A DNA stretch of 64,000 nt from Mycolicibacterium diernhoferi (GTDB lineage Bacteria; Actinomycetota; Actinomycetes; Mycobacteriales; Mycobacteriaceae). Position numbers and translations under genes: made by a program. Under the pieces are notes generated by a model. The model saw only the letters and a program-made list of their open reading frames with translations. It did no database searches and was not told where the DNA came from. Shown here one piece after another: positions 45,600 through 47,747 of the stretch (positions are counted from its first letter, which is position 1; each line of letters starts with the position of its first letter). The stretch spans positions 2,604,001 through 2,668,000 of the forward strand of contig NZ_CP080332.1 of NCBI RefSeq assembly GCF_019456655.1, read 5' to 3'.

Positions 45600-46259
45600 T
45601 CAGTGGTCGGTGGGTGCGGACTTGCGCGCGATCAGATACCCCTGCGGGGTCGATTCAACACCGTCGCCCTCGGGCGCGCGGACGAGTTGGGCAATGACCG
45701 GTAGCCCCGCATTCTGCAGTAGTTCGGCGATGGTTTCGGGGTGGCGGCGGTGGAACATCAGATCGACCGACTCGCCGAACGCCTCGGTCAGGTGCCGGGG
45801 GCGGTCGCCGATCTGGAAGGCGAGCAGGGCCACGCCGCCGGGGACGAGGACCCGGTGGAATTCGGCGAACACGGCCGGCAGGACGTCGTCGGGAACGTGG
45901 ATCACCGAGTACCAGGCACACAGGCCGCCGACGCCGGCGTCGGGCACATCGAGATCGGTCATCGACCCGACGGTGAAGCCGATGTCCGGGTGCAGTCGGC
46001 GGGCGTGCGCAACCATGTTCGGCGACAGGTCGATTCCCGACACGTCGGCGCCGTGCGCGCGCAGGATCGCGGTGGCCGCGCCGGTGCCGCAGCCGACGTC
46101 GATCACGCGGTGCCCGGCCGGCACCAGTTCGGTGAAGGCCCGCAGCATCGCGTGGTCAAGCGGTTTGCCGTCCAGGTGCTGCTGGAATGCCGCGACATAC
46201 CCGGTGGCGGTGCGGTCGTAGCCGTCGCGGGTGCGGTCCAGAAACGAGGTTTCACACAT
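45600..46259 (-). CDS. SAM-dependent class I methyltransferase
   Basis: A 219-residue methyltransferase with motif I VIDVGCGTGAAT, the acidic GIDLSPNMVAHAR, post-I SMTDLDVPDAGVGGLCAWYSVIHV and VLVPGGVALLAF. Small-molecule methylation is likely; substrate unknown. TAGCCT lies 8 nt before the ATG (leaderless), sharing bases with the divergent -10 of the small membrane protein gene. It forms a run with the SRPBCC gene. Confidence 0.85.
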   Translation of the reverse strand: MCETSFLDRTRDGYDRTATGYVAAFQQHLDGKPLDHAMLRAFTELVPAGHRVIDVGCGTGAATAILRAHGADVSGIDLSPNMVAHARRLHPDIGFTVGSMTDLDVPDAGVGGLCAWYSVIHVPDDVLPAVFAEFHRVLVPGGVALLAFQIGDRPRHLTEAFGESVDLMFHRRHPETIAELLQNAGLPVIAQLVRAPEGDGVESTPQGYLIARKSAPTDH

Positions 46260-46267
46260 CGCCCCCG

Positions 46268-46277
46268 AGGCTACTGT
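46268..46277. promoter_or_regulatory. Symmetric bidirectional -10 element
   Basis: AGGCTACTGT holds TACTGT on the plus strand, 7 nt before the ATG at 46285, and TAGCCT on the minus strand, 8 nt before the methyltransferase ATG. The hexamers share TA; both mRNAs should be leaderless. Confidence 0.6.
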
Positions 46278-46284
46278 CGCAGGT

Positions 46285-46470
46285 ATGCGTATCGCCGTGC
46301 TGATCATCGGAATCGTCGTCGCCCTGTTCGGGACGTTGTTCGCGCTGCAGGGGTTCGGCGCGGTCGGCGGCAGCCCGATGAGCAACACCACCACCTGGTC
46401 GGTGCTCGGCCCGATCATCGCGCTGATCGGGATCGGGATCGCCGGGTACGCGTGGCGGTTGAAGACCTAG
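46285..46470 (+). CDS. Small two-span membrane protein
   Basis: A 61-residue protein that is almost entirely two membrane segments (IAVLIIGIVVALFGTLFALQ and TWSVLGPIIALIGIGIAGYA) joined by a short polar loop and ending WRLKT. No family recognised. The ATG at 46285 is set by a -10 hexamer 7 nt upstream. It ends 3 nt before the promoter of the aromatic leader. Confidence 0.65.
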   Translation: MRIAVLIIGIVVALFGTLFALQGFGAVGGSPMSNTTTWSVLGPIIALIGIGIAGYAWRLKT

Positions 46471-46473
46471 CTT

Positions 46474-46501
46474 TTGACTCATCCCGGCCGCCGTGTAACG
46501 T
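46474..46501 (+). promoter_or_regulatory. SigA-type promoter of the DAHP synthase leader
   Basis: TTGACT (46474-46479) and TAACGT (46496-46501) are separated by 16 nt. The -10 ends 7 nt before the GTG at 46509, so transcription should begin at or next to that start codon and the leader peptide would be leaderless. Confidence 0.75.
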
Positions 46502-46508
46502 GGCCGGG

Positions 46509-46583
46509 GTGAACATCCGTGTGTGCGCCGGCTATTGGCGCTTTATCGAGGCTCCGGGCGGAGCCGATAAAGCGCAGCACTAA
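46509..46583 (+). CDS. Aromatic leader peptide (Tyr-Trp-Arg-Phe) upstream of DAHP synthase
   Basis: A 24-residue reading frame, MNIRVCAGYWRFIEAPGGAD followed by KAQH and TAA. It begins with GTG 7 nt after a -10 hexamer. Codons 9-12 are TAT TGG CGC TTT, placing Tyr, Trp and Phe, the three end products that control DAHP synthase, within four codons. The Arg and Phe codons form the start of a strong RNA hairpin (46539-46574), and a terminator-like hairpin follows at 46607. This is the classical layout of ribosome-mediated attenuation. A leader (aroR) upstream of a type I DAHP synthase is known in Corynebacterium glutamicum from memory. Confidence 0.8.
   Translation: MNIRVCAGYWRFIEAPGGADKAQH
46539..46574 (+). 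promoter_or_regulatory. Leader hairpin 1 (pause or protector stem)
   Basis: CGCTTTATC (46539-46547) pairs with GATAAAGCG (46566-46574), and after a 2-nt bulge GGCTCC (46550-46555) pairs with GGAGCC (46560-46565), closing on a GGGC tetraloop: 15 base pairs. The 5' arm starts at the codon right after Trp. GGCTCCGGG (46550-46558) is also perfectly complementary to CCCGGAGCC at 46596-46604, giving an alternative fold. Confidence 0.75.
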
Positions 46584-46606
46584 GCGACGCATCCACCCGG
46601 AGCCCA

Positions 46607-46634
46607 GGCAGTGACCCTCGCGGTCGCTGCCTTT
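46607..46634 (+). terminator. Attenuator terminator-like hairpin
   Basis: GGCAGTGACC (46607-46616) pairs with GGTCGCTGCC (46622-46631) (one G-U pair) around a CTCGC loop, followed by TTTCGTCATT. The T-run is short, as is common in high-GC actinobacteria. It ends about 60 nt before the DAHP synthase ATG. GCAGC at 46574-46578 and nearby A residues could pair with its 3' arm as a weak antiterminator. Confidence 0.65.
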
Positions 46635-46694
46635 CGTCATTAAAGGGCGCCCGGGAATGTGGCTCAGGTGCCCACCACCAGGAAGGTACCTCCC

Positions 46695-47747
<1,053 letters not shown>

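Follow-up and report, generated by a model that had tools for sequence, protein, structure and literature searches.

A candidate ribosome-mediated attenuator with tyrosine, tryptophan and phenylalanine codons upstream of the type I DAHP synthase gene in mycobacteria

INTRODUCTION

In the classical trp and phe attenuators (E. coli trpL and pheL), terminator and antiterminator have one strand in common. The aroR-aroF leader of Corynebacterium glutamicum was reportedly described by Neshat et al. in 2014. The accessible sections of PMC11802643, in which E. coli-type trpL/pheL attenuators are named, present C. glutamicum aroR as a Phe-Tyr-Phe leader of aroF and the aroF operon as responding to Phe limitation and not to Tyr availability; an RNA-seq study also lists the aroR leader (PMC4046766, accessible sections). 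In Acholeplasma, the uORFC-13-1 motif is described as a candidate Phe-codon uORF and a terminator before aroF (PMC8632094, accessible sections). As far as the accessible text of a 2005 study goes, no conserved RNA structures were found upstream of Phe/Tyr operons in Actinobacteria (PMC1262725). A literature search that mostly did not cover subscription papers gave no mycobacterial aro attenuator among the matches listed.

Here, we analyse the region upstream of a DAHP synthase gene of Mycolicibacterium diernhoferi, located in a window of 64,000 nt (the whole stretch of DNA under study). An earlier note, made from the letters of this DNA, had proposed that a leaderless Tyr-Trp-Arg-Phe leader peptide and an attenuator control this gene. 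Our results support that interpretation in part.

RESULTS

Promoter, leader frame and downstream gene

Reading the sequence confirmed the coordinates previously given for the promoter hexamers, the GTG, the 24-codon frame, the Tyr-Trp-Arg-Phe codons and the hairpins, all on the plus strand. The putative promoter (46474-46501, +) is composed of TTGACT (46474-46479), a 16-nt spacer and TAACGT (46496-46501). It had been called consensus-like; the hexamers are present, and TANNNT was found 6-7 nt before the start codon in 60/60 mycobacterial loci (53 at 7 nt and 7 at 6 nt, one genome being counted twice), but a strict scan of 46400-46760 gave no consensus sigma-70 promoter and no terminator. No Rfam family matched the same region at E<=1. 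When the whole window was compared with curated RNA families, the gathering score was reached by four tRNAs only, with no riboswitch or T-box match.

The leader peptide frame (46509-46583, +) runs over 24 codons, from a GTG at 46509, 7 nt past the -10 hexamer, to a TAA stop at 46581-46583, and encodes VNIRVCAGYWRFIEAPGGADKAQH. It is the tail end of a longer mechanical open frame (45741-46583). The GTG is unchanged across 59 aligned sequences, and the frame has 24 codons in 48, 23 in 11 and 13 in one of the 60 mycobacterial loci. When the sequence preceding the farthest in-frame GTG was crudely scanned, one of these 60 loci scored for a Shine-Dalgarno-like stretch. The TANNNT spacing in 60/60 is consistent with translation of the leader as a leaderless frame, and a 5'-terminal ATG or GTG reportedly serves as a start in mycobacteria (PMC4633059, accessible sections).

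As the earlier note had stated, the next gene encodes a DAHP synthase, of type I (aroFGH family; PF00793, 289 bits; TIGR00034, 493.9 bits). It specifies 350 aa from its ATG and occupies 46695-47747 (+) in our feature list, 46695-47744 being the gene span in one listing. Around its Shine-Dalgarno sequence AGGAAGG (46680-46686, +), the fold and the pair counts gave a further pairing, F:G, of 46667-46672 with 46685-46690. The genome has one copy of the leader. It also carries a type II DAHP synthase gene (L324, G000:C1:3735557-3736873, minus strand); a search of the 450 nt preceding that gene gave no small frame with aromatic codons.

Sensor codons

Codons 9-12 of the leader, TAT TGG CGC TTT (46533-46544, +), specify Tyr-Trp-Arg-Phe (YWRF). 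Across the 60 mycobacterial loci, Tyr is found in 58, Trp in 59, and Arg and Phe in all 60. In leaders from beyond the genus, these residues vary in identity yet remain aromatic (YPYF, YRYF, WYAYF, WYRRF, YRWRF, WRFYF and others). Single-aromatic-loss variants of the sensor were also seen (L118, L139, L140 and L196: YRRF, HWRF, MWRF and HSWRF). The sensor is followed by a segment called A (GGCUCCGGG, then CGG; 46550-46561, +), which begins 5 nt past the Phe codon. This spacer is 5 nt in 133/136 loci (search range 0-8 nt; the spacer-count pattern missed L224). As leaders we took sequences with A paired to its partner C (helix A:C, see later in the text) plus at least two aromatics within the six codons before the 5-nt spacer. 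Of the 148 distinct leaders so obtained, 146 have Phe as the final codon of the sensor, 5 nt before A. All three aromatics occur in 130, whereas 15 lack Trp and three lack Tyr. Phe is, of the three, the codon retained almost everywhere. Counts of 60, 136, 137 and 153 still include some duplicate loci, whereas counts of 148 do not; L141, L168 and L169 were dropped as duplicates, and L034/L122, L037/L128, L035/L149, L051/L210 and L010/L018/L021 are identical over the compared stretch.

The sensor codons are nearly always the synonym avoided by these GC-rich genes. In 153 leaders, TTT is used 154 times versus four for TTC and TAT 161 times versus five for TAC, whereas the DAHP synthase genes of 46 loci have 1 TTT versus 390 TTC and 10 TAT versus 224 TAC. 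The Arg codon of YWRF is CGC in 113/116, so that a general loss of third-position GC does not account for this preference. We assume that one tRNA reads both synonyms here, unlike the case treated in a published model. That model, in its accessible sections, makes sensitivity depend on the synonym used, for synonyms read by different tRNAs (PMC1183508). The Tyr, Trp and Phe codons probably signal shortage of these amino acids to the cell.

Alternative helices

Segment A can enter two helices. The first (hairpin A'A:BB', 46539-46574, +), identified from the fold and pair counts, joins 46539-46547 with 46566-46574 (9 bp) and 46550-46555 with 46560-46565 (6 bp), and starts at the Arg codon after Trp. 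The 15-bp hairpin that had been noted is thus present here, but it is complete only in part of the genus: the inner 6 bp (A:B) are widely paired, and the outer 9 bp decay elsewhere in mycobacteria. In the second helix, A pairs with segment C (CCACCCGGAGCC; 46593-46604, +), its partner in the putative starved conformer, identified from pairing and covariation. In line with the earlier claim that a second segment can replace one arm of the hairpin, 46550-46558 is perfectly complementary to 46596-46604, and this helix, A:C, is the most widely paired of all. An A:C helix of at least 9 bp was found in 133/137 leaders with the motif and A, versus 2.6% of Markov-resampled downstream regions.

In an alignment of 59 genus sequences (A1), a single cell of the A:C core differs, so that conservation in this set cannot separate pairing from sequence constraint, and the scores for the structure as a whole are marginal, the covariation score being matched by 58/500 shuffles and the paired cells by 10/500. 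Because the core hardly varies and the A1 scores are marginal, we used a wider set of 68 sequences (A2), from which repeated sequences were dropped and L043, L044, L045, L221 and L285 were left out by hand. In A2, which leans towards A:C because C was identified there by at least 7 nt of complementarity to A, the nine core pairs are intact in 68/68 sequences and the A:C covariation score is 0.082, versus a shuffled mean of 0.041, a value reached by 0/500 shuffles. Two-sided changes occur in 5/12 pairs (30 cells), of which eight cells belong to the core plus the pair adjoining it and 22 to the two outermost pairs; these two are open in 33 and 55 of the 68 sequences. The count of further pair types is reached by 83/500 shuffles. 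When the helix is slid out of register, the paired fraction falls to 14.7-52.1%. The 133/137 leaders with at least 9 bp provide a control separate from this alignment. A:B is also supported, less strongly than A:C: slid by +1, it has 38 two-sided cells versus 35 in the true register, and its pairs with two-sided change do not exceed the shuffles (466/500).

A further segment, E (46645-46655, +), emerged from folding and resampling as an A mimic able to pair with C once the downstream hairpin D is made, and in free full-length RNA, C:E encloses D. Of 153 loci, 36 have at least 9 of the 10 E:C pairs, versus 2.5% in resampled sequence. RNAalifold also pairs the U tail that follows D with the Shine-Dalgarno sequence; its five pairs vary and mostly remain paired, but we set this pairing aside because a pyrimidine tract faces a purine tract in it.

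A terminator-like hairpin abutting C

Hairpin D (46607-46631, +) has 10 pairs, one of them G-U, and is followed by the tail UUUCGUCAUU (46632-46641). It was recognized from its sequence, its position after C and its two-sided changes, which affect two of the ten pairs in A1. The hairpin is conserved, but its U tail falls below the strict criterion: the tail TTTCGTCA has 4 T in 8, under the U criterion of the strict scan, and the tail after D, TTTCGTCAT or TTTCGTCGT in 40/60 mycobacterial loci, is too U-poor for that scan.

A strong hairpin lies near C in 137/148 distinct leaders versus 14/444 resampled ones. With gaps searched from -10 to +29, the best hairpin starts 0-2 nt after C in 110 of the 148 leaders, 0-4 nt after it in 128 and inside C in three, and a 0-2 nt gap was obtained in 29/444 resampled leaders. 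When only the 0-12 nt downstream of C were searched, the gap was 0-2 nt in 121/134 loci. How far C lies from the stop codon differs between loci. In most leaders, D abuts C and shares no strand with A:C, which is not the layout of an antiterminator that excludes a terminator.

This differs from what we observed in some other leaders. Five betaproteobacterial DAHP synthase genes (L081, L093, L094, L098 and L110) are preceded by YFWF...PGG leader peptides, and there a terminator with a strong U tail has its 5' arm complementary to the segment that follows YFWF, in the classical layout. Since the betaproteobacterial leaders have the classical overlap, the abutting C-D arrangement is a real difference.

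Simulated ribosome stalling

In an in silico stall scan, the ribosome footprint was masked at each codon of the 59 mycobacterial sequences, with the RNA ending at C. The mean probability of A:C reached 0.99 for stalls that placed codons 8-10 in the A site and dropped to 0.78 for codon 11, 0.26 for codon 12 and 0.00 for codons 13-22. Stalls before the sensor gave 0.86 at codon 2, 0.46-0.55 at codons 3-6 and 0.98 at codon 7, and stalls at codons 23 and 24 gave 0.71 and 0.98; a ribosome parked at the stop codon also gives A:C. In the simulation, A:C is thus not confined to stalls at the sensor codons. We discount the helices obtained at codons 23-24 and at the stop with the argument that they would close around the ribosome. 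When the masked edge was moved from +16 to +11, the probability of A:C became 0.99 at codon 12 (Phe), 0.64 at codon 13 and 0.03 at codon 14. With full-length RNA, the peak was narrower (0.86, 0.90 and 0.94 at codons 8-10; 0.37-0.47 at codons 2-6). In ribosome-free RNA, A:B was ahead on average, with 0.65 versus 0.33 for A:C. In this model, the sensor codons would occupy the downstream edge of the stretch in which a stall permits A:C, with Phe on the boundary, and this would give a reason for the fixed 5-nt spacer.

Hairpin D forms with a probability of about 0.96-0.98 in every simulated state, so that exclusion of the terminator hairpin by A:C is not supported. In RNA ending at the 5' arm of D, this arm is unpaired at 0.82 for the Tyr stall, 0.80 for Trp, 0.56 for Phe and 0.50 without ribosome, and at 0.28-0.54 for stalls at codons 3, 6, 13, 15, 18, 21 and 24. 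Since D forms in all states and its 5' arm is more open at the Tyr and Trp stalls, no classical antiterminator was found. The mean accessibility of the Shine-Dalgarno sequence is also flat, at 0.54-0.59 in all simulated states of the 59 mycobacterial sequences. With D never prevented and the Shine-Dalgarno accessibility unmoved, neither textbook output is visible in folding. Folding with imposed stalls, which the earlier note had put forward as a check, gave A:C at Tyr and Trp, gave little of it at Phe unless the footprint was tight and left D unchanged.

Distribution of the element

A protein search found a type I DAHP synthase gene in 58 of 148 genomes of the same genus, and the element is present upstream of the gene in all 58 (61 element loci in total, from the 58 genomes and three named-genome loci, two genomes being met twice). 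The exact A, B, C pattern matched 56/148 genomes, once each and all within the 58 (G014 and G131 were missed), and had no match in the 90 genus genomes without the type I gene; a reversed control pattern gave one match in the 148 genomes. The leaderless-looking aromatic-codon leader and its alternative helices are thus conserved upstream of type I DAHP synthase, and the comparison of YWRF and the hairpins among relatives did not refute the reading.

Searches at wider levels found the type I gene in 127/151 genomes of the family sample and in 59/296 of the class sample, one of the latter (G515) being a weak partial match; one locus (L188) has a run of N at the element position, and G195 was left out of the class set. 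A stricter pattern matched 16 of the 296 class genomes, and all 16 matches adjoin the type I gene. In the class sample, the element was not found at the 17/17 type I loci of family f18 or at L040, L046 and L048, and there was none at L253. The element is therefore not universal among type I DAHP synthase loci of the class. What appears to be the same device is present in relatives and many other actinobacteria.

DISCUSSION

Comparison with known systems

The short aromatic-codon leader peptide upstream of an aroF DAHP synthase gene is common to this locus and to aroR-aroF, and the gene downstream of the leader is of type I here. The sensor is different, being Tyr-Trp-Arg-Phe here, in mycobacteria and other actinobacteria, and Phe-Tyr-Phe in C. 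glutamicum; compared with C. glutamicum aroR, sensing of Trp would be new. In two loci of genus g3 (L221 and L224; MRNWRFYFEWGSGR and MRMWRFYFSKAPEAETS), which we infer to be Corynebacterium, the reported Phe-Tyr-Phe is contained in the leader, and both show pairing of A with C; the spacer is 5 nt in L224, whose sensor reads WRFYF, and L221 scored with 6 nt. The Acholeplasma uORFC-13-1 motif, as presented in the accessible sections of PMC8632094, differs in having a ribosome-binding site and in being known from Acholeplasma and environmental sequence only, with 24 unique representatives. Given C. glutamicum aroR and the Acholeplasma aroF uORF, we file the element as a variant of the same kind.

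Like the leaderless polycysteine uORFs described for cysA2 and other genes in the accessible sections of PMC4633059, the leader is a short, leaderless-looking mycobacterial frame that contains codons for the product and precedes a biosynthetic gene. However, the codons there are for cysteine, and in the accessible text of PMC1262725 the polycysteine uORFs have no conserved hairpins able to serve as terminators, whereas alternative helices and a terminator-like hairpin are conserved here. With trpL and pheL, the element would share a decision between helices, before a terminator, by stalling at product codons; unlike in these systems, the best hairpin overlaps C in only 3/148 distinct leaders. 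Relative to the known systems, the new features would be the three-aromatic sensor, the leaderless start, the near-exclusive use of the rare TTT and TAT codons, the wide distribution, and a helix that usually abuts a terminator-like hairpin with no shared strand.

Proposed mechanism and alternatives

We consider it likely that the element controls the type I DAHP synthase gene as a ribosome-mediated attenuator of the AroR kind. A short frame with codons for the product amino acids is conserved (frame, GTG and Tyr, Trp and Phe codons), and in silico the alternative helices are selected by the position of the ribosome. With charged tRNAs, the ribosome would reach the stop codon or leave, A would be covered or held in A:B, D would form and transcription would mostly end. 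Should Tyr-, Trp- or Phe-tRNA run low, the ribosome would wait at codons 9, 10 or 12 and mask the outer arm of A:B; A would then pair with C, and transcription would continue into the gene. A:C would tie the stalled ribosome to the terminator, and the step from A:C to read-through is one that we infer.

For this step, we tentatively suggest, as a possibility that we hold with some doubt, that a tethered ribosome causes antitermination by blocking D through distance and not through strand exchange. A:C would act as a ruler that starts 5 nt past the last sensor codon and ends beside the terminator hairpin; it would remove 55 nt of leader (46550-46604) from the path and pin the ribosome beside the terminator. 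With A:C in place and D completed, the ribosomal P site would be separated from the active centre of the polymerase by about 20-29 nt of free RNA, as calculated from coordinates for stalls from Phe12 to Tyr9 with the polymerase at 46638 and helix widths ignored. The closest ribosome-polymerase spacing in collided expressomes is about 30 nt. The free RNA would be at or below this spacing, so that D could not close, without any competing strand being involved. According to the accessible sections of PMC5021804, a ribosome close behind the polymerase can prevent terminator hairpins, and stalling is described as usually raising premature termination.

The output could also lie in translation. A:B, C:E and F:G would hide the Shine-Dalgarno sequence in fed cells, A:C and E:F would free it on a stall, and D would merely be a spacer hairpin. 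The helices do form a chain of mutually exclusive pairs, the free RNA from the window folds as A:B, D, C:E and F:G, and E resembles A at more loci than expected by chance. We nevertheless regard such a switch as unlikely: translational control is not preferred because the Shine-Dalgarno accessibility is flat in mycobacteria (0.54-0.59 in all states of the 59 sequences), and a spacer needs no tail, whereas a TTTCGTC-like tail is conserved after D in most of the 60 mycobacterial loci. The leaders with a YFWF sensor (such as L060, L067, L068, L080, L232-L262 and L293-L308) are possibly a translational version. In many of them, A (about CAGGCCGGCCC) can pair with B (GGGTCGGTC) or with a near-copy of B by the Shine-Dalgarno sequence (GGGTCGGCCTG), D has no U tract, and the mean Shine-Dalgarno accessibility is 0.51 at the Tyr stall versus 0.34 in free RNA (54 of 64 loci, those that gave all parts), but stalls before the sensor give the same (0.45 and 0.52), and at Trp and the last Phe the increase disappears (0.39). 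In this group, C apparently overlaps D, and exclusion of D was considered there too; it was not seen, the probability of D being 0.94-0.99 at the sensor stalls and 0.84 without ribosome (61 of 64 loci).

That the element is a classical attenuator whose antiterminator we missed, another segment pairing with the 5' arm of D on a stall, is improbable in our opinion. Attenuators of this kind are well known, and the betaproteobacterial aroF-type leaders have such a layout, their post-YFWF segment pairing with the 5' arm of their U-tailed terminator; here, however, this arm is more unpaired at Tyr (0.82) and Trp (0.80) than without ribosome (0.50), and the rarity of best hairpins starting inside C (3/148) points the same way. 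It would be very surprising if the RNA were read by a protein or a small ligand and the small frame were incidental. Such a reading would fit the almost invariant A:C core within the genus, as well as the locus L120, in which the frame ends straight after YWRFI and A, B, C and D are all retained. It agrees poorly with the retention of the frame and its aromatic residues across the class, Phe being last in 146/148 distinct leaders, with the rare synonyms in the sensor codons and with the lack of an Rfam match at E<=1.

If a ribosome-mediated attenuator operates here, the entry enzyme of the aromatic pathway would be under translation-sensing control in all 58 sampled same-genus genomes that have the type I gene. 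The YWRF, YPYF, WYAYF, YFWF, WRFYF, HWRF and YRRF leaders would then form a natural series of sensors on related RNA frames, allowing direct tests of the aromatic amino acid to which each sensor responds and of the reason for the choice of the rare TTT and TAT codons. The constancy of the 5-nt spacer and the closeness of the terminator also pose a question that experiments can address, namely how a stalled ribosome could stop a terminator without an antiterminator strand.
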